Below are positions 1 to 11,611 of a stretch of 11,611 nt of DNA, piece after piece. Both the position numbers and the translations under genes were made by a program. This DNA comes from Evtepia sp. (lineage in GTDB: Bacteria > Bacillota > Clostridia > Oscillospirales > Oscillospiraceae): the NCBI GenBank assembly GCA_029256465.1, contig JAQSXW010000012.1, forward strand, positions 1-11,611, in the 5' to 3' direction. The first letter of the stretch is position 1. The number at the start of each line of letters is the position of its first letter. The notes beneath the pieces were generated by a model. That model searched no databases, was not told the origin of the DNA, and saw nothing but the letters and a program-made list of their open reading frames with translations.

Positions 1-497
1 TGAAAAACGGCATTGGTCCTTGGAAGGATCAGAAGGAGAACTTCCGAATCCTGTGGGATGGGATTGCCTGCTGGCCTTACCTTCGGCATACATATAAAAC
101 CCTCAAGAATCTTGGAATGAACATGGTCACCTCCTCCTATCCAAAGTCATGGACGGTGACCTATGAAACTGGCGACATTGAAGGGATGGCAAAAGCCTAC
201 TCTGCCAATGTGTATGGCAACCGCAACCTTCACTATGATGTGGATAATATGGTGTCCTTAGCAAGAAAGTTCGATCTGGACGGTATCGTGTTCCATTCCA
301 ACCGGAGCTGCAAGCTCATGGATTTCAGGCAGTACGAGGTCCAGCGCCGGGTCTTTGACGCGTGTGGCGTCCCCTCTGTCATCTTTGACGGGGACCAGAC
401 AGACCCCCGTCTCTTCTCGGAGGCTCAGTATGAAACGCGCATTCAGGCCCTTGCCGAAATGATGCAGGAAAATAAGCGAAAGAAAGAGAGGTTATAG
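1..497 (+). CDS. 2-hydroxyacyl-CoA dehydratase subunit (HgdA/HgdB-like), 3' part only
   Basis: This is the C-terminal end of a 2-hydroxyacyl-CoA dehydratase subunit; the frame is open from base 3 leftwards off the window, so the start is not seen. In this family two related subunits hold [4Fe-4S] clusters and dehydrate (R)-2-hydroxyacyl-CoA to the enoyl-CoA in amino acid fermentation. About 165 residues are visible. The stretches WDGIACWPYLR, DGIVFHSNRSCK (a probable cluster-ligand cysteine) and FSEAQYETRIQALAEMM are typical of the family's C-terminal half. An internal ATG at 117 is not a credible start because conserved sequence continues upstream of it. The stop (495-497) lies one base before the ATG of the next gene, so the two are surely one operon and the two proteins probable partners. 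The substrate cannot be told from the sequence. Confidence 0.9.
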   Translation, partial: KNGIGPWKDQKENFRILWDGIACWPYLRHTYKTLKNLGMNMVTSSYPKSWTVTYETGDIEGMAKAYSANVYGNRNLHYDVDNMVSLARKFDLDGIVFHSNRSCKLMDFRQYEVQRRVFDACGVPSVIFDGDQTDPRLFSEAQYETRIQALAEMMQENKRKKERL

Positions 498-498
498 T

Positions 499-1629
499 AT
501 GGATCGTCTGTCTACTCTGATACAAGATTTATACGAAGCTGGTCGACATCCAAAAAGCACCATAGAGGCCTCCCTTAAATACACCGGAAAAAGTGCCGTT
601 GGATGCTTCCCCCTGTTTCTGCCGGAAGAGCTTATTTACGCCTCTGGGTTCCTCCCCATTGGCTTATGGGGAGGCATCTCAGGCTTTCAGTTGGCTGATA
701 GATACCTTCAAAGCTTTGCCTGTTCCATCATGAGAGCTAACATGGAGCTGGCGCTGAACGGAAGCTACCACTTTTTAAAAGCCATCTTAGTTCCCTCTCA
801 ATGTGACACTTTAAAATGTGTTTGTGAAAACTTAAAGGTTGCGCTTCCAGCCATCCCAATCATTGGTGTCACCATTCCAAATAACCGAACCATTCAGGCC
901 GCCCATCAGCAGCTTCTCTGTGAATTCGATTACATCACGGAGTCACTTAGAAAGCTGCAGGATCCATCCGCAAAGCCCATCCCCATTGAAGAGGCTTTTG
1001 AGGTTTATCAGAAGTATAGAAATTGCATGATGGACTTTATTACCACTGTTCCACGTTATTTGAATACCATAACCGCCAAGATGCGCCACTATATTATAAA
1101 AGCTGCCTTTTTCATGGATAAGGCAGACTATACAAGGAAGATGGAAGCACTGCTTATTGAGTTAAAAAAGCAACCAGAGGAAACGTTTCATGGCACCCGC
1201 CTCATAGCAACCGGTATCATGATCGATTCTGAGCCTGTCCTAGATTTACTTACTGATCTCAAAATTGCTGTGGTCGATGATCTTCTTTGTCAGGAGTCAA
1301 TGCAGTTCCGCACTCCGCCAAGGGAAAAAGGAAGTGTCCTTTCTAAAATTGCTTATCGCCTTTTGGATTTGCAGGCCGCATCGGTTCTTTACGAGCCTAT
1401 GAAGCCGCGTGGAAACTTACTTGGCGACATAGTAGAAACACACCATGTAGATGCGGTACTTTTCTGTCTTATGAAGTTTTGTGATCCGGAAGCCTTTGAC
1501 CAGCCTTTGGTAAAAAAAGACTTAAAGGATCGCGGTATCAAGATGCTCAGCATTGAAATCGACCAACACGTCGATTCCATCGAACAGCTTCGTACCAGAA
1601 TCCAGGGCTTTTTAGAGATGAATCTGTAA
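499..1629 (+). CDS. 2-hydroxyacyl-CoA dehydratase, second subunit
   Basis: Complete 376-residue subunit of the 2-hydroxyacyl-CoA dehydratase family (HgdB/FldC/HadC type), a usual length for the family. It should pair with the preceding gene product to form the iron-sulfur dehydratase in the cytoplasm. Visible family marks are GCFPLFLPEELIYASG near residues 35-50 (C36), SQCDTLKCVCENLK near 100-113 (C102, C107, C109), and LMKFCDPEAFDQPLVKKDL near 324-342 (C328), then the terminal RTRIQGFLEM. C36, C102 and C328 are the likely [4Fe-4S] ligands by position; this is inferred. AGAGGT about 8 bases before the ATG is a good ribosome site. The activator gene follows after 32 bases. The substrate (2-hydroxyglutaryl-, 2-hydroxyisocaproyl-, phenyllactyl-CoA or another) is open. 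Confidence 0.92.
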   Translation: MDRLSTLIQDLYEAGRHPKSTIEASLKYTGKSAVGCFPLFLPEELIYASGFLPIGLWGGISGFQLADRYLQSFACSIMRANMELALNGSYHFLKAILVPSQCDTLKCVCENLKVALPAIPIIGVTIPNNRTIQAAHQQLLCEFDYITESLRKLQDPSAKPIPIEEAFEVYQKYRNCMMDFITTVPRYLNTITAKMRHYIIKAAFFMDKADYTRKMEALLIELKKQPEETFHGTRLIATGIMIDSEPVLDLLTDLKIAVVDDLLCQESMQFRTPPREKGSVLSKIAYRLLDLQAASVLYEPMKPRGNLLGDIVETHHVDAVLFCLMKFCDPEAFDQPLVKKDLKDRGIKMLSIEIDQHVDSIEQLRTRIQGFLEMNL

Positions 1630-1661
1630 GCCATCGGGCAGTCCAAAAAGGAAGTGTACTT

Positions 1662-2453
1662 ATGTTTTTAGGGATTGACATCGGGTCCTCCTCCTCGAAG
1701 GTGGTCATATTGAGTCAGGATCAGAAAATCTTGGCTTCACATGTGGTGAATCTTGGAACCGGAACCCGCGGCGTGCAGCAGGCATTGAATCAGGCCCTTC
1801 AGAAAGCAGGCATTCGGAAAGAAGACCTCCTTTTTACCGTGGTGACGGGTTACGGCAGAATGAACTACTCTGACGCAGACAAACAGATCACAGAGATCAG
1901 CTGCCATGCCAAAGGAGTCCAATTCTTAGAAAATGATGTCAGAACCATCATTGACATTGGTGGACAAGACACGAAGGTCATTCGCCTGGACTCAGACGGT
2001 TTGATTGAAAATTTTGTAATGAATGACAAGTGTGCTGCCGGAACGGGTCGTTTTTTGGAAGTCATGGCTCGCGTTCTTGACTGTAACATCAGTGCTCTAT
2101 CTGATCTTGCAAAGAATGGTCAGAATCCTGTCCCCATCAGTAACATGTGCACTGTGTTTGCAGAGTCGGAGGTCATTTCTCACCTTTCTTCTTCGGCAGC
2201 AGTGGAAGATGTGGCCGCAGGCGCCATCCTTTCCATCGCTGCACGAGTTGCCGGAATGGCAGGGCGTGTCGGTATTCAGCCATCCGTGATGATGACGGGT
2301 GGTGGTGCACTGAATCAATCCCTTGTTGATGCCTTGAGCGAAAAAATCTGTTTTCAAATCAGGGTACCCGAAAACCCTCAGGTCATTGGGGCGTTGGGCG
2401 CTGCTGTCTTTGCCTATGGGATATATCATAACGGAAAAATGAAACCTGCGTGA
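1662..2453 (+). CDS. hgdC: Activator (ATPase) of 2-hydroxyacyl-CoA dehydratase, HgdC/FldI/HadI type
   Basis: A 263-residue member of the BadF/BadG/BcrA/BcrD ATPase family, full length for the HgdC group. The homodimer carries one [4Fe-4S] cluster and uses ATP hydrolysis to inject a low-potential electron into the dehydratase. ASKHA-fold nucleotide motifs are clear: GIDIGSSSSK (residues 4-13), DIGGQDTK (98-105) and MTGGGALN (211-218). The two cysteines that bridge the cluster across the dimer are present as NDKCAAGTGRF (C124) and NMCTVFAESEVI (C163), so the protein looks functional. AGGAAGTG upstream of the ATG serves as the ribosome site. Being last of the three genes, it completes a dehydratase operon. 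The hgdC symbol denotes the activator family, not a proven substrate; fldI or hadI may suit better once the substrate is known. Confidence 0.95.
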   Translation: MFLGIDIGSSSSKVVILSQDQKILASHVVNLGTGTRGVQQALNQALQKAGIRKEDLLFTVVTGYGRMNYSDADKQITEISCHAKGVQFLENDVRTIIDIGGQDTKVIRLDSDGLIENFVMNDKCAAGTGRFLEVMARVLDCNISALSDLAKNGQNPVPISNMCTVFAESEVISHLSSSAAVEDVAAGAILSIAARVAGMAGRVGIQPSVMMTGGGALNQSLVDALSEKICFQIRVPENPQVIGALGAAVFAYGIYHNGKMKPA

Positions 2454-2480
2454 AGGGATCTAAATCAACCGATTATCTGT

Positions 2481-2520
2481 TATAATATAATTGGACGGCG
2501 TCCATATTTGGATGCCGTCC
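2481..2520 (+). promoter_or_regulatory. Probable lysR promoter with a stem-loop at the predicted transcript start
   Basis: A perfect -10 box TATAAT lies at 2481-2486, with no convincing -35 at 17 bp upstream. From 2493, about where transcription would begin, an 11-bp inverted repeat follows: GGACGGCGTCC (2493-2503), loop ATATTT, GGATGCCGTCC (2510-2520), with one G-T pair. No T-run follows on the + strand, so it is a poor terminator for the activator gene. It could be a 5' stabilising hairpin, an operator (possibly for the LysR protein itself), or a weak factor-independent stop on the opposite strand. Confidence 0.45.
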
Positions 2521-2551
2521 ACTAGCTTACGTAAGATTGGTTGGGGTGAAT

Positions 2552-3430
2552 GTGAGTATCAAAAAGTACGAAATATTTCTGAAAACAGTCGATTTAGGAA
2601 GCCTAACGAAAGCATCTCAGATCTTGGGCTATACCCAGTCTGCCATCAGTCATATCATTGCGGGACTTGAAGACGAGTTGGGAATTAAGCTATTAATTCG
2701 AGGGCGTACCGGCGTTCGTCTGACCGAGGAAGGGCATCACCTGATGGCGGCAATTCGCACAATCTGCCAAGATAACCAAGAGCTTTTGCGTCAAGCGTCT
2801 GAGCTACATGGCCTGGAAACGGGGACAATCCGAATTGGCACCATCTTAAGCGTCTCGATTCACCTATTACCGAAAATGATCCGTACTTTCTCGGAGCAGC
2901 ATCCCAATATAGACTTTGAGTTGTTACAAGGCAATTATGACGATATGGAACAGTGGATCAGCGAGGGACGGATTGACTGCGGATTTCTTCGCTTGCCAAC
3001 CAATGAAGCCTTTGATACGACCTTAATCGTGAGGGAAAAATTCCTAGCCATTTTCCCGGTAGACCGAGAAATCGAAGGAGATCGCTTCCGTTTTGATGAC
3101 GTGAAAGCAGAGCCTTACATCTTGCGACCGGATACCTTGGATGGTGATCTGGGAAAAGTATTAAAAAAGGCAGCGTATCGGCCGAAAATTACGTATTCAG
3201 CAAAGGACGACTATGCGGTTATGGCGTTGGTTGAGCAAGGTTTGGGTATGAGCATTCTACCAGAGCTTCTGATGAAGGGCACTACATATCAGTTAAAGAA
3301 AATGGAACTCGATCCACCCCTCTTTCGGGAAATCTGCCTTGCATATAAAAATGCGCAAACGCTTTCTCCAGCTGCAAAACAATTTATCAGCTATGTGAAA
3401 AACAACTTTGCTAACCAAGTCGAAACTTAA
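2552..3430 (+). CDS. LysR-type transcriptional regulator
   Basis: LysR-family regulator of 292 residues with this start, a usual length. The N-terminal winged helix-turn-helix covers about residues 1-60, with the classic GSLTKASQILGYTQSAISHII followed by LEDELGIKLLIR. The rest is the periplasmic-binding-protein-like effector domain, starting near GTIRIGTILSVS. The start was chosen at GTG 2552, giving MSIKKYEIFLKTVDLGSLTKA, which matches the usual beginning of this family; GGGGTGA sits just upstream. In-frame TTG 2537 or GTG 2546 would add only a few residues and cannot be excluded. It lies about 100 bp downstream of the dehydratase activator on the same strand but has its own -10 box. Control of the dehydratase operon or of nearby genes is plausible but inferred; no ligand can be named. 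Confidence 0.9.
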   Translation: MSIKKYEIFLKTVDLGSLTKASQILGYTQSAISHIIAGLEDELGIKLLIRGRTGVRLTEEGHHLMAAIRTICQDNQELLRQASELHGLETGTIRIGTILSVSIHLLPKMIRTFSEQHPNIDFELLQGNYDDMEQWISEGRIDCGFLRLPTNEAFDTTLIVREKFLAIFPVDREIEGDRFRFDDVKAEPYILRPDTLDGDLGKVLKKAAYRPKITYSAKDDYAVMALVEQGLGMSILPELLMKGTTYQLKKMELDPPLFREICLAYKNAQTLSPAAKQFISYVKNNFANQVET

Positions 3431-4226: not shown

Positions 4227-4460
4227 TCATAACCCCTGTATTATGGTATTTTTGATAAAAGACACACCTGCAACAATATCAACTTCATTCGGATGACCTT
4301 TTGCAATACCACCAATCAGTTTCCAAAAGCCATAAGTGTCGTATCCTTTGCATCGGTATATTCCAAGTATTTGAAGTCCTATTTGAGTCAAATGTTCAGA
4401 AAAGTTTTTTGCATATTTTCTGCTGGCGGTTCCGCTGGTATATAGAATAAAGGTTTTTTG
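4227..4460 (-). pseudogene. Flavodoxin C-terminal fragment, broken at the tRNA-Ser remnant
   Basis: Reading on the - strand from the tRNA remnant, about 77 residues match the C-terminal half of the flavodoxin family: TFILYTSGTASRKYAKNF (strand before the FMN-contacting loop), then LQILGIYRCKGYDTYGFWKLIGGIAKGHPNEVDI, ending in a normal stop (4229-4227). The KGYDT and GHPNE motifs are characteristic. The N-terminal half with the phosphate-binding loop (usually TxTGNT-like) is absent and is not found elsewhere in the window. Open frame continues through the tRNA remnant, but that part (LEISLPVTPARGFESHR) is merely translated tRNA sequence. The fragment cannot form a working flavodoxin. It shows that an intact gene was cut at about 4460. 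Confidence 0.75.
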
Positions 4461-4517
4461 CGGAAGACGGTGGGATTCGAACCCACGTGCCGGGGTTACC
4501 GGCAAACTGATTTCGAG
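4461..4517 (-). repeat. tRNA-Ser(CGA) 3'-half remnant, left copy (attachment-site-like)
   Basis: Read on the - strand this is the 3' half of a tRNA-Ser gene. It has the anticodon loop CTCGAAA, the 3' anticodon strand TCAGT, the long variable arm GCCGG-TAAC-CCCGGC, the T arm GTGGG-TTCGAAT-CCCAC, and part of the acceptor strand. Positions 4465-4517 are identical to 11364-11416 (53 bp). The acceptor end is decayed: GTCTTCCGCA here against GTCTCCGCCA in the right copy, with one extra base and no CCA. No 5' half (acceptor, D arm) lies at higher coordinates, so this is not a functional tRNA. Its sharp start at the anticodon loop suggests a recombinase attachment site. Confidence 0.85.
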
Positions 4518-4705: not shown

Positions 4706-5612
4706 CACATTTATCAACTTCAGCCTGCAACGTTACATGACTGATACCATATTGTTTTATTAAAAGGTGTTCAATTTTATCATAAATTTTTTCAGCTTCT
4801 GAAATCGACATATCTTCCATATCAATATGAGCCTCAAAATATATTGTTTTTTCATTGAGCATCCATGAATGAACATGGTGAATATTTTTTACCTTATCTA
4901 TTCTTTCCACATCATTTTTTATAGCTTCATAATCCAAATCAGCTGATGATTGCATCAAAATACTAATGGTTGTTTTGATGACGATCCATGTTTCTCTCAG
5001 TATGTATAAAGATATCAGCACAGTAATCAGTGGATCAAGCCAAACGATGCCCCATAGTTTGATTGCAACACCACCAGCCAACACGCCTACTGAGGATACT
5101 GTGTCACTTAAAAGGTGCAGATAGCTTGACTTTATGTTCAAGTTTTCATGCGAATCCTTCTCTAAAAGGAATACCGAAATAAAGTTAGCAATCAGTCCGA
5201 TAAGTGCTACTGTTATCATCAGCGTTCCATCAATGCTTTCAGGTGACCTTAGTCTCTTAAACGCTTCAAAAAACAATAAAGCAGAGATTGCAAGCAAGAC
5301 TGTTGAATTGATAAAAGCCGAAAGTATTTCTGCTCTTTTATACCCGTACGTCATTCTAGGGTCCTTTGGTTTTTTTGCTATTTTGTTAGCAAAGTAAGAA
5401 AGTGCGATTGAAACGGTATCACTTAAATTGTGGACGGCATCAGACAATAATGCCAAACTGCCAGAAAGAATTCCTCCAACAAGTTCAGCAATAGTAATCG
5501 TAGCATTTAACAGAGTCACCCAGAATATTTTTTTACCTGATAAGTTTGACACGTTGTGTGTATGTTTAGCCTCTGAATGATTGTGATTATGTTCATGACC
5601 ATGCTCATGCAT
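4680..5612 (-). CDS. Cation diffusion facilitator (CDF) family zinc-type exporter
   Basis: A 310-residue CDF transporter, normal length, that should export Zn(II) or a related divalent metal (Cd, Co) against protons across the cytoplasmic membrane. The N-terminus is a His-rich metal-binding stretch (MHEHGHEHNHNHSEAKHTHN). Six membrane helices follow between about residues 28 and 220. The transport site is HNLSD in helix 2 (H61, D65) and HLLSD in helix 5 (H166, D170), the HD-HD set of ZitB/CzcD-like zinc carriers. Residues 221-300 are the cytoplasmic ferredoxin-like dimerisation domain with IHHVHSW (244-250). AAGGTGA precedes the ATG by six bases. A TTGACA-17-TAGGAT promoter candidate lies upstream. 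The coding sequence is AT-rich compared with the genes at 7-11 kb. A broken permease-like gene overlaps its 3' end. Confidence 0.95.
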   Translation of the reverse strand: MHEHGHEHNHNHSEAKHTHNVSNLSGKKIFWVTLLNATITIAELVGGILSGSLALLSDAVHNLSDTVSIALSYFANKIAKKPKDPRMTYGYKRAEILSAFINSTVLLAISALLFFEAFKRLRSPESIDGTLMITVALIGLIANFISVFLLEKDSHENLNIKSSYLHLLSDTVSSVGVLAGGVAIKLWGIVWLDPLITVLISLYILRETWIVIKTTISILMQSSADLDYEAIKNDVERIDKVKNIHHVHSWMLNEKTIYFEAHIDMEDMSISEAEKIYDKIEHLLIKQYGISHVTLQAEVDKCDDKRIIKA

Positions 5613-5701
5613 TACTTGTCACCTTCATTTACTTTTGCAAGTATTTTTAAAGCATTATTGCTATACTCTTCTTTGGCTTGAAGTCTGTTCTCGTATTCAT
5701 C
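5612..5701 (-). pseudogene. Possible remnant of a small gene upstream of the CDF exporter
   Basis: A - strand frame reads DEYENRLQAKEEYSNNAL and then KILAKVNEGDK. It ends in TAA sharing one base with the exporter ATG (TAATG), an arrangement typical of coupled genes. Just upstream the same frame holds a TAG (5704-5702), preceded by protein-like GYRITPIIIDKQKLIE. No start codon lies between the TAG and the fragment. It may be the tail of a degraded gene, perhaps a regulator, or chance coding in a leader. No family is recognised. Confidence 0.25.
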
Positions 5702-5727
5702 CTATTCGATTAATTTTTGTTTGTCAA
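5699..5727 (-). promoter_or_regulatory. Candidate promoter of the CDF exporter gene
   Basis: On the - strand a perfect -35 TTGACA (5727-5722), a 17-bp spacer and TAGGAT (5704-5699; four of six matches) would start transcription near 5692, giving an 80-nt leader to the exporter ATG. This competes with the reading of the same bases as a decayed gene. No clear operator is visible next to it. Confidence 0.4.
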
Positions 5728-6040
5728 TTATAATAGGAGTTATTCTATAACCCGTTTTAAAACATTATTGACAAATGCCAAACACTAGTTTCGAGAACTC
5801 CCCTAAACAAAGCATTCCCTCTGGCGGTGCTATGCGATTGAAATGAATGCTCGTATTTAACTAAGCGGAGAATCCAAAGTACTCCTTTAATATATGACTT
5901 TCATAAGAAAGTGTAACATGTTGTATCTGCGATACGGGGAGCATGGCTGATACTGATCACTTATCAGTGATATTATCACTTACTTTTTGTGGCTGACTAG
6001 TTATACTTCGGTCAATAAAACTAATGTGAGGTTATTTCTG
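5728..6040. other. AT-rich intergenic region between divergent CDF and ferredoxin genes
   Basis: No convincing gene was found on either strand. It contains a small stem ACTTTC-ATAA-GAAAGT (5897-5912), an AAAGGAGT on the - strand (about 5889-5882) with no usable frame behind it, and the TATCAGTGATA palindrome cluster described separately. An in-frame extension of the ferredoxin gene back to TTG 5987 is open but lacks a ribosome site and family resemblance. Confidence 0.5.
5952..5982. promoter_or_regulatory. TetR-operator-like palindrome cluster upstream of the ferredoxin gene
   Basis: The 11-mer TATCAGTGATA (5962-5972) is a dyad centred on G5967 and equals the core of the classical tet operator. 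It sits inside overlapping repeats: ATCACTTA occurs at 5956-5963 and 5975-5982, and AGTGAT (5966-5971) is its inverse. This looks like a binding site for a TetR-type or similar dimeric regulator of the ferredoxin operon, about 60-90 bp before its start. No TetR gene is in the window, so the role is inferred. Confidence 0.35.
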
Positions 6041-6235
6041 ATGTTAAAAAAAATTGCACGGGTAAAAACACAAGAATGTATTGCTTGCGGCGAATGTATA
6101 AACCATTGTAAAAAAAAATCAATTAATATTTGGAGAGGTATCTATGCTTTCATAAACGAACAATCATGCATTGGATGTGGACTATGTGCCAAAAAGTGCC
6201 CTGCGACAGCGATCCAGGTAGGTAATGCGGAATGA
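6041..6235 (+). CDS. Small 2[4Fe-4S] ferredoxin
   Basis: A 64-residue bacterial ferredoxin with two complete cluster motifs: CIACGECINHC (CxxCxxCxxxC, residues 12-22) and CIGCGLCAKKCP (about residues 45-56). Each motif's last cysteine normally ligates the other cluster, so two [4Fe-4S] clusters are expected. ATG 6041 was chosen over upstream TTG codons because TGAGGT (6027-6032) lies at a proper distance and the product matches the family length. The stop overlaps the start of the next gene in ATGA (6232-6235), so translation is coupled to a NapH-like membrane protein. The pair probably forms an electron-transfer module that passes electrons between a cytoplasmic donor and the membrane protein. 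The gene is AT-rich, like the exporter next to it. Confidence 0.93.
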   Translation: MLKKIARVKTQECIACGECINHCKKKSINIWRGIYAFINEQSCIGCGLCAKKCPATAIQVGNAE

Positions 6236-6798
6236 AAAAGAAGCAGTGGTATGATTATTTGTGGATCTTTTCAGCAATCTATTTGTTCTTGGGTATGTTT
6301 AACATTCTTTTTGCTTGGATTGGGTTGCTTTGCTTTTTGATTCCCCTCTCAATTGCGATAGTTTTTGGTTCTAAGGCATATTGCAACAAATACTGCGGAC
6401 GGGCCCAACTTCTTAATTTACTTGGAAGCAGTTGTAAAATGTCCCGAAACAAAAACATACCTGCATTATTTAAATTAAAATGGTTTAGATATGGGTTTAT
6501 GATTTTCTTTTTAATAATGTTTGGCGTGATGTTATTTAATACTTACCTTGTATTTGCAGGGCAGAATTTGCATCAAGTTGTAACGTTATTTTGGACGTTT
6601 AATCTACCATGGAATTTTGCTTATCGTGGTACCGAAGTTGCACCTTGGGTAGCGCAATTTGCTTTTGGTTTTTATAGTTTGATGCTGACATCCACACTTT
6701 TAGGGATGATTGCTATGTTCTTTTTTAAATCGCGCAGCTGGTGTGTCATTTGTCCCATGGGTACGATGACGCAGCTGATATGCAAAGCGAAAGTCTAA
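6232..6798 (+). CDS. NapH-like membrane iron-sulfur protein (short form)
   Basis: A 188-residue integral membrane protein of the NapH/NosR-C-terminal/MauN-like group, with four to five hydrophobic segments (about 10-45, 87-109, 145-166). Cysteine pairs sit at the membrane surface: YCNKYCGR (C51, C55), C68, and WCVICPMGTMTQL (C171, C174), the last being the CxxCPxG hallmark. The usual C-terminal double [4Fe-4S] domain is absent, but the co-translated ferredoxin upstream may provide it as a separate chain; that split arrangement is an inference. It likely moves electrons across or along the cytoplasmic membrane to or from an unidentified partner. The start overlaps the ferredoxin stop by four bases. 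A probable terminator follows about 25 bases after the stop, so the operon is two genes. Confidence 0.85.
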   Translation: MKKKQWYDYLWIFSAIYLFLGMFNILFAWIGLLCFLIPLSIAIVFGSKAYCNKYCGRAQLLNLLGSSCKMSRNKNIPALFKLKWFRYGFMIFFLIMFGVMLFNTYLVFAGQNLHQVVTLFWTFNLPWNFAYRGTEVAPWVAQFAFGFYSLMLTSTLLGMIAMFFFKSRSWCVICPMGTMTQLICKAKV

Positions 6799-6813
6799 CG
6801 GTAATATTACCGT
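6798..6813. repeat. Perfect 16-bp palindrome at the stop codon of the NapH-like gene
   Basis: ACGGTAATATTACCGT is fully self-complementary and begins on the last base of the TAA stop. It has no loop and no T-run, so it is not an intrinsic terminator. It may be a protein-binding dyad or chance. Confidence 0.5.
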
Positions 6814-6821
6814 TCAACACA

Positions 6822-6852
6822 TGCAGCATACAATCTTTTGTGCGGCATTTTT
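6822..6852 (+). terminator. Imperfect hairpin plus T5, probable terminator of the ferredoxin operon
   Basis: TGC-A-GCA-TA-CAA (6822-6833) can pair with TTG-TGC-G-GCA (6838-6847), with one mismatch, a two-base bulge and a TCTT loop; TTTTT (6848-6852) follows at once. It is placed 24 bases after the stop of the NapH-like gene. Confidence 0.45.
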
Positions 6853-6914
6853 CTACTAACATGTGTATGGGATCCGGGCATACCTCGCTTCCCGGCATAT
6901 CCGGGGGTGGAAGA

Positions 6915-6961
6915 CAATAAGACAGGGATAAATCCTTTTTAGGATTTATCCCTGTCTATTG
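6915..6961. terminator. Long hairpin between convergent genes, probable bidirectional terminator
   Basis: GACAGGGATAAATCCT (6921-6936) pairs perfectly with AGGATTTATCCCTGTC (6941-6956) around a TTTT loop. CAATA (6915-6919) and TATTG (6957-6961) extend the stem past a single bulged A. It lies 11 bases beyond the stop of the - strand DUF2680-like gene and after the + strand ferredoxin operon. Neither side has a long T-run, but the stem is very strong. Confidence 0.7.
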
Positions 6962-6971
6962 ACAAATGACT

Positions 6972-7442
6972 TTAGCTTGTCTGTCCAAAGTCTCCGCAAC
7001 TACCCTGACCACAGCCTACGCTACCCTGGCCTCGTCCTTGTCCGTTACCCATGCCACCACCGAATCCGGCTCCCATTTTCTGTCCAATTCTTCCCGAACC
7101 GGTGCCGTCACAGTTTGCCTGATTCTGTTCCATTGCCTTAATAATGGCGTCAGCTCTTTCCTGGCTCATTGTGCCAGCGGCCACTTTCTCCTTGAGCAGT
7201 TCTTTTTTCTGCTCAAGCATCTGGGACTTGAATTCGTCGAGCTTTCCGGCGTCGTTTGCAATTGTGCCATAGGTGTTGCCGGAATCATTTCTTTCCTCGA
7301 TCACGCTGTCGACGGTTTTACCGGTAAGCCCTGCAACAACCTCGGCGGGTGTTTTGTAGGACGCAGCAAGCGCCGTAACCGACATTGCGCTGACAACGAG
7401 CACAGCAAGACCGATAACTGCGAATTTCTTGAACTTTTTCAT
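6972..7442 (-). CDS. Secreted DUF2680-like protein with a Gly-rich, Cys-containing tail
   Basis: A 156-residue exported protein. Residues 1-27 are a signal peptide (KKFKK, hydrophobic core, SVTALA-A cleavage site). Residues 30-105 resemble the DUF2680 (YckD-like) helical domain: TPAEVVAGLTGKTVDSVIEE, YGTIANDAGKLDEFKSQML, then LLKEKVAAGTMSQERADAII. The tail from about 108 is rich in Gly, Gln and Met, with three cysteines (C111, C144, C149). Those could bind metal or form a disulfide outside the cell; this is inferred. AAGGAGT stands six bases before the ATG. Upstream lies one copy of the promoter box shared with the Fe-S protein and the response regulator, so it is probably a target of that two-component system. 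No biochemical role is known for the family from sequence. Confidence 0.85.
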   Translation of the reverse strand: MKKFKKFAVIGLAVLVVSAMSVTALAASYKTPAEVVAGLTGKTVDSVIEERNDSGNTYGTIANDAGKLDEFKSQMLEQKKELLKEKVAAGTMSQERADAIIKAMEQNQANCDGTGSGRIGQKMGAGFGGGMGNGQGRGQGSVGCGQGSCGDFGQTS

Positions 7443-7485
7443 AAAAATACTCCTTTTAATTTATTTGTTTCTGCTGTTTGATCTG

Positions 7486-7526
7486 TCTATATAATGCCTG
7501 AGGAATGTGGCAAAAGTATGTTTTTT
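7486..7526 (-). promoter_or_regulatory. Shared regulon promoter, copy A (secreted DUF2680-like gene)
   Basis: On the - strand the box AAAAAACATACTTTTGCCAC (from 7526) ends in the -35 TTGCCA (7513-7508). A 16-bp spacer and TATAGA (7491-7486) follow. Transcription would begin near 7480, about 38 bases before the ATG. The core ACATACTTTTGCCA is identical to that in copy B. Confidence 0.65.
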
Positions 7527-7575
7527 ATTTTCTATTTCTGCGACATTTCAGCATCACGAAACAGGAACCATATGA

Positions 7576-8979
7576 TTACTGCAAGGCAGTTTTAATGGAA
7601 TCAAAGTCATATCCTGCCACAACATTTCCGATATCCTTCATCTTTGTAGAAGCCGAAACGGATTCAGGGATCTGAAACAACTGGTAAAAGTCTTTATGGT
7701 CCAGCCCGACTGCTTTTGCCGCATCGCTAATGGTCATAGATCCACGAACCGCGCTTACATCAGCTTCACCCGCGGAATCAGATGTTTTTTTATCCGTATT
7801 GGATGATCCGGTACCAGTCGTGGCTGTGGTTGAGCTTTGGGTAAGGTTCGCTGCGGCAGATTCTTTGGCTGCATCAAAGTCATATCCGGGGACGACTGCG
7901 GTGATGCCTTTCATCAGTGTATCAGCTGGGACGCTTGGGGGAATTTTCATTCTGGATCGGAACTGCTCTTCAGAAAGACCGACTGCTTTTGCCGCATCGG
8001 CAATGGACATATATCCTTTGACTTCCGATAACGTTATGGTTTCATTGGGTTTGATAGATTCATTCACCACTTCAAAGATTCCTGCGCTCTGAGCTGCGAT
8101 GATAGGAATGAAGAACAAGCCTGCGACCAGGACAATCATCACGATCGGTGACACGCTCTTTTTGAAAGTTTTAATTTCAAGGGCACCCTTTTTGGGACAG
8201 ACATGGACGCATTCGTTGCAGTTTATGCATTCAGCGGAAATGACACGATCCATCTTGGCTACATCTAGATTGACCGGACAGGTCTTGGTACACAAGTTAC
8301 AATGGATGCAGGCATCATTATTGCGCACAACTTTTGTCGGGCTAACTTTGCCGATAAGCGCATAAAACGCGCCTGCCGGGCACAGATACTTGCAGAAGAA
8401 GCGGTCATAAATAAATGATCCAAGAAGCGTGACTCCGAGGAGAATGAAACTGATAATAGACAGAGGATCTTCGGCGAGTGTACCCGGTATGGCCGTGATG
8501 TGGCCATAAGCGACATAGGGATCAAAACTGGACATCCACAACCTGCCAAGATACCAGGCCATGAAAATCGTCAGGACCAATACGCCATATTTGAGGTAGC
8601 GCAGATATTTGTCCACCTTGGCTGGTAAGACAGGACGCTTCTTAAAGATCTTTTTACCTAGTATTCCGAAAAGCTCCTGCAATGCTCCAAACGGGCATAG
8701 CAGGCCGCAGAAACTGCGGCGGAACAGAATTGCGATCAGTATGGTAACTCCCAACAGAATTAGGGTGCCGGAATAGATTTTTTGAATATAAGTACCTGCT
8801 ACCATCAAGGTATAAAGGCTTTCCAGTGCACCATAAGGACACAAGGCGTGAATGGATGGAGATTTTCCGCCACCAAGCACTTGATGCATAATCGACTCAT
8901 AGGTTACCCAGATTAAAAGAAGAGTCAGCAGCCCTCCTCTGATCCAACGAGCAGCTGTGTTAGTTTTGTTCGTCTTCAC
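7576..8979 (-). CDS. NapH/NosR-like membrane iron-sulfur protein with two C-terminal extracytoplasmic repeats
   Basis: A 467-residue membrane protein. Cysteine motifs in order: ALCPYG (C47), CGLLCPFG (C91, C95), CKYLCPAG (C196, C200), then a double [4Fe-4S] ferredoxin domain CIHCNLCTKTCP (224-235) and CINCNECVHVCP (251-262). Hydrophobic segments lie near 13-30, 70-88, 127-146, 174-192 and 277-297. With five helices and the ferredoxin domain inside, the C-terminus falls outside the cell. That part has two related units of about 54 residues (321-374 and 412-465), sharing SIADAAKAVGL/TISDAAKAVGL, a Pro-Ser-Val turn and PGYDFD/AGYDFD, joined by a Ser/Thr/Gly linker. The start is GTG 8979, with AAGGGAG upstream. 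It likely carries electrons across the membrane; its partner is unknown. The shared promoter box stands upstream, divergent from the response regulator gene. Confidence 0.88.
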   Translation of the reverse strand: MKTNKTNTAARWIRGGLLTLLLIWVTYESIMHQVLGGGKSPSIHALCPYGALESLYTLMVAGTYIQKIYSGTLILLGVTILIAILFRRSFCGLLCPFGALQELFGILGKKIFKKRPVLPAKVDKYLRYLKYGVLVLTIFMAWYLGRLWMSSFDPYVAYGHITAIPGTLAEDPLSIISFILLGVTLLGSFIYDRFFCKYLCPAGAFYALIGKVSPTKVVRNNDACIHCNLCTKTCPVNLDVAKMDRVISAECINCNECVHVCPKKGALEIKTFKKSVSPIVMIVLVAGLFFIPIIAAQSAGIFEVVNESIKPNETITLSEVKGYMSIADAAKAVGLSEEQFRSRMKIPPSVPADTLMKGITAVVPGYDFDAAKESAAANLTQSSTTATTGTGSSNTDKKTSDSAGEADVSAVRGSMTISDAAKAVGLDHKDFYQLFQIPESVSASTKMKDIGNVVAGYDFDSIKTALQ

Positions 8980-9010
8980 CTTCGTTTTCTCCCTTCTAAC
9001 GTTTGATTTG

Positions 9011-9051
9011 TTTAGAAATTACCTTGCAAATATGGCAAAAGTATGTCTTTT
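9011..9051 (-). promoter_or_regulatory. Shared regulon promoter, copy B (large Fe-S protein gene)
   Basis: On the - strand AAAAGACATACTTTTGCCAT (from 9051) ends in -35 TTGCCA (9038-9033), then 16 bp and TCTAAA (9016-9011). This copy shows a perfect inverted repeat CAAAAG-ACATA-CTTTTG just upstream of and into the -35 box. The GTG start lies about 25 bases after the predicted transcript start. Confidence 0.65.
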
Positions 9052-9075
9052 GTTTTGTAAATCTGTGTTGACTTC

Positions 9076-9121
9076 AAAAAACACACTTTTGTCACAGTTC
9101 ATATTTACAATATGATATAAT
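9076..9121 (+). promoter_or_regulatory. Shared regulon promoter, copy C (two-component system)
   Basis: AAAAAACACACTTTTGTCAC (from 9076) ends in -35 TTGTCA (9089-9094). A 16-bp spacer leads to TATGAT (9111-9116), with TATAAT (9116-9121) overlapping it. It differs from copies A and B by C for T in the ACAYA part and T for C in TTGYCA. It lies back to back with copy B, 24 bp apart, so one intergenic region drives both directions. Confidence 0.65.
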
Positions 9122-9148
9122 CTAACAATAACGTTGTGGGGTGATCGT

Positions 9149-9844
9149 ATGCCAACTGTTCTTATCGCGGATGATAACCGTCAAATAACCTCCATTCTCG
9201 AAGAGTATTTTAAAAAAGAAGGGTATACACCCGAAATTGCACGAAACGGACAGGAGGCAATTAACCTGTTCTTAAAATGTAAGCCCGATATTGTTTTGCT
9301 CGACGTCATGATGCCGATCATGGACGGCTTTGAAGTATGCCGAGAGATTCGAAAAAACTCAAATACACCAGTCATTATGATCACTGCAAGAGGCGAAGAC
9401 TTTGAGAAAATCATGGGGCTCGACATCGGGGCGGACGACTATATTGTAAAACCATTTTCTCCCGGTGAAGTGATGGCAAGGGTTCGGGCGATCCTGCGCA
9501 GGGTCACCCGCACGGACGGGCAGAAAAAGCAGTTTTTCTCATTTAAGAATCTAACCGTTAACCTCGATGACTATATCGTGACCATTGACAATAAGGTAGT
9601 TACGCTTACGAAAAAAGAGCTTGAAATTCTGTGGACGCTTGCCACCAACCAAAACAAAGTATTTTCCCGTGACAATCTGTTGAACAGTTTGTGGGGCTAT
9701 GACTATTTTGGCGACAACCGGACTGTGGATTCCCATATTAAGCGCCTGCGTGCAAAGCTCGACGAATACAAGCACGAAGACTGGGATATCAAAACCATAT
9801 GGGGTGTAGGCTACAAATTCGAGGTGAAAGCCGATGAAAAATAA
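9149..9844 (+). CDS. OmpR/PhoB-family response regulator
   Basis: A 231-residue two-component response regulator. The receiver domain (1-118) has the acidic pair D8-D9, phospho-acceptor D52 in IVLLDVMMPIMDG, T79 in MITA and K101 in VKPFSP. The C-terminal winged-helix domain (about 134-228) has VTLTKKELEILWTL, FSRDNLLNSLWGYDY, RTVDSHIKRLRAKL and TIWGVGYKF, all classic for the OmpR group. ATG 9149 was chosen because GGGGTGAT lies just before it; TTG 9134 in the same frame overlaps that ribosome site. The gene overlaps the sensor kinase gene by 11 bases. A copy of the shared promoter box upstream suggests that the protein activates its own operon and the two adjacent units. Codon use and base content resemble the large Fe-S protein gene rather than the exporter gene. 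Confidence 0.95.
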   Translation: MPTVLIADDNRQITSILEEYFKKEGYTPEIARNGQEAINLFLKCKPDIVLLDVMMPIMDGFEVCREIRKNSNTPVIMITARGEDFEKIMGLDIGADDYIVKPFSPGEVMARVRAILRRVTRTDGQKKQFFSFKNLTVNLDDYIVTIDNKVVTLTKKELEILWTLATNQNKVFSRDNLLNSLWGYDYFGDNRTVDSHIKRLRAKLDEYKHEDWDIKTIWGVGYKFEVKADEK

Positions 9845-11282
9845 GATAGCTTTCAAGCTTACGGTCTATTTTTCCTCTGCACTGTTTTTGTTCTCCCTTA
9901 TTATCGGCGGTGTTTTCATAATACTGTTTCGAAGCCATACTATCGAAGTTCATAAAGCTGATTTGGAAAAACGGGCAGTTACAATGGCCGAGACACTATC
10001 TGGATTTATAAATGGTACAAATACAGTTTGGCAGGGCGTCGGTATGGGTAGGATGGTCGGTGGGCAGGGCGGTTACGGCGTCTATCTGCGTTTCTTAGAC
10101 GATATTGCAATGGCCGACGTTTGGATCGTAGACGAACATCTCAATCTCATTACAAGTGGAATGGCTGGCAACAAATTTAGTTACGCGGATTTGCCGCAGA
10201 ACGCGGAATCGGTTGTGACGGAAGTTTTTAAGGGTAACACAACCTTCAGCGAAGGCTTCAGCAATCTCTTGAAAGCACCCACCTTAACGGTTGGCACTCC
10301 TATTGAATCGGGAGGAAAAGTCATAGGCGCGCTTCTTTTGCATTCCCCGGTAGAAGGTATGAACGAAGCGACTGTGCAAGGGGTCAGCATACTTGCTGTC
10401 AGCATAGTGGCAGCATTGCTATTATCCATACTTTTGTCTGTCGCACTTGCACGTGCCTTCACAAAGCCTCTAAAGAAAATGAGGAATACCGCGGCTTTGC
10501 TTGCCGGAGGTGATTATACCGCAAAAACCGACGTGCGGCAAAATGATGAAATCGGCGAGCTAGCCTCTGCAATTGATGTTTTGAGTGAACGGCTCGAGCA
10601 AGCAAGGGGGGAAAGCGAAAAACTGGATAAACTCCGTCGGGATTTTGTGGCCAATGTCTCTCATGAACTCAAAACACCGATTACCGTCCTTCGGGGTTCT
10701 CTGGAAGCACTGTGCGATGAGGTTGTGACTGACCCCACGCAGGTAAAAGATTATCACCACCAGATGCTGGGAGAAAGTCTATTTCTTCAACGGTTGGTGA
10801 ACGACCTGCTGGATTTGTCCCGTCTGCAAAACACGGATTTCCAAATCGAAATGCAGGACATTAACCTTTGCGATGTATTGAGCGATGCTATCCGCAGCGC
10901 GGGGCAAATGGCTCTGAAAAAGAATATTGAGATACGCCTTGAACAATATAAGCAGATGCTGATGGTCTACGGTGATTATGGCCGTCTGCGCCAGATGTTT
11001 CTGATCATTTTGGATAATGCTGTTAAGTTTTCTCCGCAGGGAGAAGCTGTTGCCATTTCACTTAAAGACAAGACGGTTTCAATCCGTGACCACGGCATAG
11101 GAATTCATGATGAGGATTTGCCGTATATTTTCGATCGGTTTTATAAGGTAAATTCGGAAGAGAATAAGAACGGCTCTGGTCTAGGCCTCGCCATCGCAAA
11201 ACAGATCGCTGACCGGCACCATATCTCGGTTTCAGTCAGTAGTAAAGTTAATGAGGGAACTGATTTCCAGTTTCAATTTTAA
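9834..11282 (+). CDS. Sensor histidine kinase, partner of the response regulator
   Basis: A 482-residue membrane kinase. Two membrane helices (about 10-32 and 184-206) flank a roughly 150-residue extracytoplasmic sensor region. HAMP covers about 207-260 (FTKPLKKMRNTAALLAGGDY). The phospho-acceptor is H277 in FVANVSHELKTPI. The ATPase domain has the N box (LIILDNAVKFSP, N395), G1 (DHGIGI, 419-424), F box (IFDRFYKV) and G2 (GSGLGLAIAK, 447-456), so it looks active. The sensor region holds a Gly/Met/Gln-rich run (GVGMGRMVGGQGGYG, about 68-82) with no cysteine or His cluster; the signal is unknown. GAGGTGA precedes ATG 9834, which overlaps the regulator gene. A strong bidirectional terminator follows 40 bases after the stop. 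Confidence 0.95.
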   Translation: MKNKIAFKLTVYFSSALFLFSLIIGGVFIILFRSHTIEVHKADLEKRAVTMAETLSGFINGTNTVWQGVGMGRMVGGQGGYGVYLRFLDDIAMADVWIVDEHLNLITSGMAGNKFSYADLPQNAESVVTEVFKGNTTFSEGFSNLLKAPTLTVGTPIESGGKVIGALLLHSPVEGMNEATVQGVSILAVSIVAALLLSILLSVALARAFTKPLKKMRNTAALLAGGDYTAKTDVRQNDEIGELASAIDVLSERLEQARGESEKLDKLRRDFVANVSHELKTPITVLRGSLEALCDEVVTDPTQVKDYHHQMLGESLFLQRLVNDLLDLSRLQNTDFQIEMQDINLCDVLSDAIRSAGQMALKKNIEIRLEQYKQMLMVYGDYGRLRQMFLIILDNAVKFSPQGEAVAISLKDKTVSIRDHGIGIHDEDLPYIFDRFYKVNSEENKNGSGLGLAIAKQIADRHHISVSVSSKVNEGTDFQFQF

Positions 11283-11322
11283 TTGTTTTTTCAATGAATT
11301 AGAATGTAACTAAAGAAAATAG

Positions 11323-11358
11323 AAAACCCGCTGAATTCATTGAATTCAGCGGGTTTTT
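11323..11358. terminator. Strong bidirectional terminator (kinase operon and tRNA-Ser remnant)
   Basis: AAAACCCGCTGAATTCA (11323-11339) is exactly complementary to TGAATTCAGCGGGTTTT (11341-11357), with one base between (in practice a slightly larger loop). T5 (11354-11358) ends it on the + strand for the kinase gene; on the - strand the stem ends GGGTTTT, right after the tRNA-Ser CCA end, as a normal tRNA terminator would. Confidence 0.85.
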
Positions 11359-11416
11359 GGCGGAGACGGTGGGATTCGAACCCACGTGCCGGGGTTACCG
11401 GCAAACTGATTTCGAG
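11358..11416 (-). repeat. tRNA-Ser(CGA) 3'-half remnant, right copy (attachment-site-like)
   Basis: On the - strand this is nucleotides 32 to the end of a tRNA-Ser gene: anticodon loop CTCGAAA, variable arm GCCGG-TAAC-CCCGGC, T arm, acceptor strand CGTCTCC, discriminator G and encoded CCA (11360-11358). Its 53 bp 11364-11416 equal 4465-4517. The bases that should form the 5' half (upstream at 11417 and beyond) do not: AACGA cannot pair fully with TCAGT, and no D arm or GGAGACG acceptor strand appears. It is therefore a 3' half only, better preserved than the left copy. Confidence 0.85.
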
Positions 11417-11457
11417 TCGTTGGAAACCATTGTCTTTCCGTGTCCTCGGGTGGCTTT

Positions 11458-11596
11458 TGTGAGCGTATAAAAACGGCGAAAAGCTTGATTTCATGCGGGT
11501 TTACGGGCACAAATGCCCTTGCCAAAAGGCTTTTCAGAAAATCGCTCCCAAAGCAGGTTTTTTGGATAAGTGTGAGCAAGCTGTGAGCGCTCACAG
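11458..11596. repeat. TGTGAGC repeat cluster and 16-bp palindrome beside the right tRNA remnant
   Basis: TGTGAGC occurs at 11458-11464, 11571-11577 and 11582-11588, with an inverted copy at 11589-11595. The last two form the perfect palindrome CTGTGAGCGCTCACAG (11581-11596). No gene was recognised between 11417 and the window end. Placed next to an attachment-like site, the repeats could be arm-type integrase sites or an operator; this is inferred. Confidence 0.45.
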
Positions 11597-11611
11597 TGTT
11601 ATCATACAGAG

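Follow-up and report, generated by a model that had tools for sequence, protein, structure and literature searches.

The 11,611-nt stretch of DNA from Evtepia sp. analysed here (the window) contains a 14-base sequence, ACAYACTTTTGYCA, three times without a mismatch, at 7508–7521 (−), 9033–9046 (−) and 9081–9094 (+), which raises the question of which protein reads it and how the promoters around it are built. Each copy lies upstream of a gene, encoding respectively a DUF2680 protein (start at 7442, −), a membrane Fe-S protein (8979, −) and a response regulator, RR (9149, +), and all three copies end in TTGYCA, as the original prediction for this DNA had stated. The copies are genuine, as an order-1 Markov model predicts 0.0006 exact matches for the two strands of the window together; the corresponding Poisson probability of at least three copies, ~4e-11, overstates the case because two of the copies are not independent. 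A search of the genome of origin (873,951 bases) with up to one mismatch returned four matches: the three exact ones of the window and one that deviates at a single base and lies within a reading frame of 222 aa. The reversed pattern returned two. As the assembly is only 54.28% complete, this search is a partial test of specificity.

The features of the region are collected in Table 1. The RR combines a receiver domain with a Trans_reg_C winged helix, placing it in the OmpR family. The Fe-S protein shares the Fer4_5 membrane core and 4Fe-4S motifs with the membrane ferredoxins NapH, CcoG and NosR, but it reached no NCBIfam cut-off among the models listed (napH 96.7 vs 213.05; TIGR02163 also below cut-off), and it differs from them in its extra C-terminal repeats and in its genetic link to DUF2680 and a kinase-regulator pair. 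The Fe-S gene also contains a DNA repeat, D3. Behind the DUF2680 gene lies a perfect 17-bp, terminator-like hairpin (6920–6957). A small ferredoxin and a 188-aa protein with a Fer4_5 motif are encoded at 6041–6798, and none of the window's twelve best matrix sites (see below) lies upstream of them.

Table 1 Features of the regulator-kinase region and its promoters. Bit scores refer to the 22-bp matrix built from relatives; p values come from dinucleotide shuffles.
Feature	Position	Strand	Remarks
Regulator box, RR promoter	9078..9099	+	AAAACACACTTTTGTCACAGTT; left half AAACA, right half TGTCA, 11 bp apart; 12.5 bits, shuffle p 0.01, second-best site of the window
Most likely RR −10, TATAAT	9116..9121	+	21 bp after TTGTCA; best-scoring hexamer; 22 bp is modal in RR promoters of relatives
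Alternative RR −10s	TACAAT 9106..9111, TATGAT 9111..9116	+	
Regulator box, Fe-S promoter	9028..9049	−	AAGACATACTTTTGCCATATTT; 8.8 bits, shuffle p 0.03, third-best site of the window
Candidate Fe-S −10, TAATTT	9016..9021	−	11 bp after TTGCCA; weak; originally predicted hexamer TCTAAA at 16 bp
Regulator box, DUF2680 promoter	7503..7524	−	AAAACATACTTTTGCCACATTC; 13.3 bits, shuffle p 0.005, best site of the window
Candidate DUF2680 −10, CATTAT	7491..7496	−	11 bp after TTGCCA; weak; originally predicted hexamer TATAGA at 16 bp
DUF2680 protein, 156 aa, Gly-rich tail, secreted-looking N-terminus	6972..7442	−	PF10925 E 7e-8; secretion putative
Membrane Fe-S protein, 467 aa, NapH/polyferredoxin-like core and two C-terminal repeats	7576..8979	−	PF12801 and Fer4 models
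OmpR/PhoB-family response regulator, 231 aa	9149..9844	+	PF00072 106 bits, PF00486 98 bits
Sensor histidine kinase (HAMP, HisKA, HATPase)	9834..11282	+	Overlaps RR gene
72-nt promoter repeat, two copies	7469..7540 and 8994..9065		74% identical

Relatives of the locus were collected with the Fe-S gene as anchor, by protein search, alignment and genome searches, and wider stretches of 23 loci were taken. Fe-S homologues in the sampled genomes were at most 58% identical; the protein database holds relatives at 85–90%, and plasmids gave no match at E<=1e-40. Eight of the 27 Fe-S-anchored loci other than the window encoded an RR 61–65% identical to that of the window. Each of these RR genes diverges from a DUF2680 gene, except that of L157, which diverges from the Fe-S side. 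With the RR itself as query, a search around genome G707 matched 36 of 150 genomes (E<=1e-82; highest identity 78%), and 30 of the 38 RR places listed came with loci. Within 1.5-kb flanks of these 30 RR genes, DUF2680 was found in 18, the Fe-S gene in one (L176) and neither in 11; L175 does have a DUF2680 gene, preceded by an 8.5-bit box, but beyond this flank, in the wider region L263. A scan of named genomes gave 80 loci, largely from proteobacterial relatives, of which L036, L037, L039 and L041 were used for upstream regions (L035 is the same contig as L157).

The resulting upstream set comprised 33 RR, 28 Fe-S and 20 DUF2680 regions (tblastn cut-offs of 250, 220 and 80 bits, respectively, with identical ends removed). 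A 22-bp matrix was derived by expectation-maximisation from 32 RR upstreams, excluding the window, whose RRs are 54–79% identical to that of the window; its consensus, ATGCCATAAATATGTCACAAAC, is a tandem repeat with a period of 11. When both strands of the window were scored, the top three sites were the reported boxes (13.3, 12.5 and 8.8 bits), followed by a site of 6.2 bits, and this ranking is the strongest single result because the window was absent from training. An early two-mismatch scan of relatives with the 14-base core had given few matches, since the left half is TGYCA there, not ACA.

Each upstream region (300 bp) was then compared with 200 dinucleotide shuffles. At p<=0.01, a box was found in 31 of 33 RR upstreams, of which 32 were training sequences, in 19 of 20 DUF2680 upstreams and in 12 of 28 Fe-S upstreams; the RR gene thus carries a box in its own promoter in the window (p 0.01) and in 30 of the 32 relatives that form the training set. 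The two RR upstreams above the threshold were L172 (p 0.02) and L177 (p 0.49; interrupted by N), and in L173 the RR site counted overlaps the DUF2680 box on the opposite strand. Fifteen Fe-S upstreams had p values above 0.05. Seven of these genes follow a boxed DUF2680 gene (L150–L153, L159, L164 and L168), the L157 gene has a box-like sequence further upstream, and L037 has a site at p 0.065; for the remaining six of the 28 (L156, L160, L162, L165, L167 and L039), no box was found within 300 bp and no boxed DUF2680 gene lies ahead, the ORF ahead of the Fe-S gene in L162 being itself boxed. The recurrence of the box before RR, DUF2680 and Fe-S genes of relatives bears out what the original prediction implied for related loci.

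The box was also uncommon at other promoters of the same loci. Of the 194 ORFs (150 aa or longer) in L148–L170, loci chosen for the Fe-S gene, 29 had a box of at least 8 bits within 300 bp upstream, and 23 of these 29 were RR, DUF2680 or Fe-S genes, as judged by start position and N-terminus. A strict pattern searched in 16 genomes gave 19 matches, compared to one for the reversed pattern: eight before DUF2680-like genes, one before an Fe-S gene, two in the RR/DUF2680 gap, one each before a SHOCT and a DUF4405 protein, two before a 196-aa protein, three inside ORFs and one without an ORF near. Three of the eight DUF2680-like matches lie away from the RR gene (L205, on another contig, L206 and L217), and in genome G985 the Fe-S gene, although 1.2 Mb separate it from the RR gene, is preceded by a box, 11 bp and TATAAT. 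Seven of the 16 genomes had no strict match, among them the five nearest RR relatives, in which the boxes depart from that pattern. Overall, several families of the phylum have the box before these same kinds of genes. Genomes G237 and G327 have boxed Fe-S genes and RR homologues (E<=1e-55) of at most 46% identity, so another OmpR-family regulator must read the box there. The two strict matches before the 196-aa protein, which has a signal-like start, share TGCCACAGCTTTGCCACA (L214 and L219, with a small ORF in between in L219); the L214 protein matched no Pfam family above cut-off. A further arrangement was seen in the RR/DUF2680 gap of genome G1008 (L204, L213 and L218), where half-sites follow one another every 11 bp, which suggests cooperative binding by more than one dimer.

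OmpR-family regulators bind as head-to-tail dimers. In the boxes of relatives, 5.00 of 7 positions matched between half-sites at a direct lag of 11, compared to 1.1–3.0 at lags of 7–10 and 12–15, giving two direct half-sites with a period of 11 bp, of which the left one is degenerate in the window (AAACA or AGACA vs TGYCA). When the half-sites were paired in inverted orientation the score reached up to 4.19 per 7, which is high because TGNCA is nearly its own reverse complement; for the same reason, the direct orientation is a deduction from the CAYA tails and the habit of the regulator family. Judged from its sequence, the box is a tandem 11-bp repeat like those of PhoB and WalR, with TTGYCA as its right half-site. 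The left half reads RACA instead of TGYCA in the window and in most boxes of close kin (TGACG and AGTCA in L171). The recognition helix reads RTVDSH in the window and L171–L175 and RTVDTH in the other 27 RRs, a split that fits a change along one clade and is no proof of contact.

The original prediction had drawn a different architecture, in which an inverted repeat, CAAAAR-ACAYA-CTTTTG, overlies an ordinary −35 box, TTGYCA, separated by exactly 16 bp from the −10 hexamers TATAGA, TCTAAA and TATGAT. All of these elements are present in the window, the three copies matching the palindrome at 5, 4 and 6 of 6 positions. Among relatives (61 boxes), however, the palindrome averaged 2.03 of 6 positions against 1.74 expected from composition, and with conservation so near the composition level the inverted-repeat reading was rejected. 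The 16-bp spacing held as a description of the window, not as a rule. With a simple −10 score applied to promoters with a box of at least 8 bits, the best −10 in relatives was found 11 bp after TGYCA in 12 of 19 DUF2680 and 9 of 12 Fe-S promoters. For RR promoters the best distance was mostly 22 bp (23 of 31), and the mean profiles peaked at the same distances; these counts are not all independent because many loci come from one genus. Two named Clostridium loci, L039 and L041, likewise show the 22-bp register, as do four from family f197. In the window itself, the hexamers at 11 bp are weak, as Table 1 indicates, but together with TATAAT at 21 bp in the RR promoter they outscore those at 16 bp, TCTAAA scoring poorly. 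A consensus-promoter scan of 5600–11611 returned 14 promoters vs 10.6 in shuffles, too close to background to be informative, apart from listing the TTGTCA/TATGAT pair of the RR. Furthermore, 16 bp was the best distance in three of the 19 DUF2680 promoters, L189 and, both with TATAAT, L171 and L172; as the latter two are among the closest RR relatives, the 16-bp register may apply in the window. Taken as a whole, the inverted-repeat architecture with a plain −35 box is improbable.

The tandem repeat invites a second question, namely whether these might simply be Pho boxes recognised by PhoB/PhoP, the phosphate regulator. An excerpt of PMC2648988 describes the E. coli PhoB site as 22 bp with two 11-bp direct repeats, the same layout as in the window, and the PhoB consensus quoted in an excerpt of PMC4168254 is near-identical to that of the box family. 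Applied to a 6-kb pst region of E. coli K-12, our matrix scored highest (8.3 bits) on a tandem TGTCA repeat ahead of pstS, and 11 bp separate its final TGTCA from TATTTT, which we take to be the pstS −10. On the strength of this match and its spacing, the mode of action in the window is probably PhoB-like, though the RR falls below the PhoB model cut-off (207.8 vs 296.2 bits). The phosphate regulon itself was rejected as an explanation: none of 13 pstS-like genes above the family cut-off, drawn from 12 of the 14 genomes searched, had a site of at least 8 bits in the preceding 600 bp (highest score 6.0), a test that concerns relatives only, the pstS-like match of the window genome being below the cut-off, and none of the 19 strict-pattern matches was seen before a pst gene. 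The regulon thus differs from that of PhoB in its members, and the RR's own promoter differs in its 22-bp register; we regard a phosphate regulator as the reader of these boxes as very unlikely. The other close parallel is WalR/VicR (YycF), an OmpR-family regulator whose sites are given in an excerpt of PMC4168254 as hexameric direct repeats with a 5-bp spacer, i.e. the same period of 11. Among NCBIfam models the RR also scores best against YycF (233.6 bits), but this is below the cut-off of 340, the target genes are others, and the half-site is TGYCAYA in the window compared to the TGTTAT-like half-site of WalR in that excerpt.

There is also the view that the three similar sequences are a mere by-product of duplication within a genomic island and have no regulatory meaning. 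At 4460–4517 and 11358–11418 lie two directly repeated 3' fragments of tRNA-Ser(CGA), each beginning in the anticodon loop and running to the 3' end. The 6.9 kb between them contain the regulon, a CDF transporter and two Fe-S genes, the layout that an island integrated at a tRNA gene would have, and the region is probably such an island. No intact tRNA was found in the window, the tRNA-Ser(CGA) gene is intact in the three congeners tested, and no integrase was found among eight proteins run through Pfam. Parts of 15–3374 match congeners at 65–69% DNA identity, and the 4.4–11.4 kb part gave only matches of ~320 bases or less, a pattern that fits horizontal acquisition of the regulon cluster. 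Outside the box, the DUF2680 and Fe-S upstreams agree at 34 of 50 positions (shuffle mean 17.0, with none of 20,000 shuffles as high), and these two are probably one duplicated promoter. The RR copy, however, shares only 20 of 50 positions with the DUF2680 copy, and the box recurs before the same gene families across the phylum, including genes that do not adjoin the RR gene. Duplication as the whole explanation is therefore scarcely credible.

We consider it likely, from comparison of sequences, that the three boxes are binding sites of the RR encoded at 9149–9844, with PhoB-like geometry and as part of an autoregulated regulon. That the RR, the DUF2680 protein and the membrane Fe-S protein form such a two-component regulon is well supported, and the RR would bind the boxes. 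The original prediction is hence partly supported: one cis-element common to two targets and the regulator, its probable binder, stands, and TTGYCA becomes a half-site instead of a plain −35 box. In the proposed mechanism, the kinase would phosphorylate the RR, and an RR dimer would bind head-to-tail to two half-sites 11 bp apart, in the window in the form RACAYA-CTTT-TGYCAYA. At target promoters the right half-site would end 11 bp before the −10, and from this position the dimer may replace the −35 element and touch RNA polymerase as PhoB does; its effect would be activation rather than repression. At its own promoter the box would be shifted upstream by roughly one helical turn, to 22 bp from the −10 in most relatives and 21 bp in the window, and may confer positive autoregulation. 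The targets here would be the DUF2680 and membrane Fe-S proteins, to which relatives may add boxed SHOCT and DUF4405 proteins.

The signal can be approached through the neighbouring genes, identified by Pfam in L264, L262 and L035 and by eye in L265 and L266. In the near relatives L264–L266, the genes after that of the kinase encode a DsbD/CcdA-type membrane protein and a thioredoxin-like one; L262 and L035 have, close by, a gene for a pyridine-nucleotide disulphide reductase that includes a rhodanese domain. This neighbourhood suggests thiol/redox stress of the envelope, and the probable stimulus of the system is thiol, redox or metal stress outside the cytoplasm. A wider reading, tentative and in our judgement a little short of an even chance, is that Bacillota possess an undescribed and widespread two-component system in control of an envelope redox-maintenance regulon, in which one box in two registers (11 bp at targets, ~22 bp at its own promoter) would mean that two promoter classes are activated differently. 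Members in that reading are the DUF2680, SHOCT, polyferredoxin-like and DUF4405 membrane proteins, with DsbD/CcdA-thioredoxin neighbours.

A search of the open-licence literature found nothing on such a regulon, and the name DUF2680 turned up in a single paper there. The analysis provides a testable binding site, promoter geometry and target list for an uncharacterised two-component system and for DUF2680, and the use of one box in two registers offers a natural comparison. If the proposal is true, DUF2680, the polyferredoxin-like protein and their partners would fall into one stress response.
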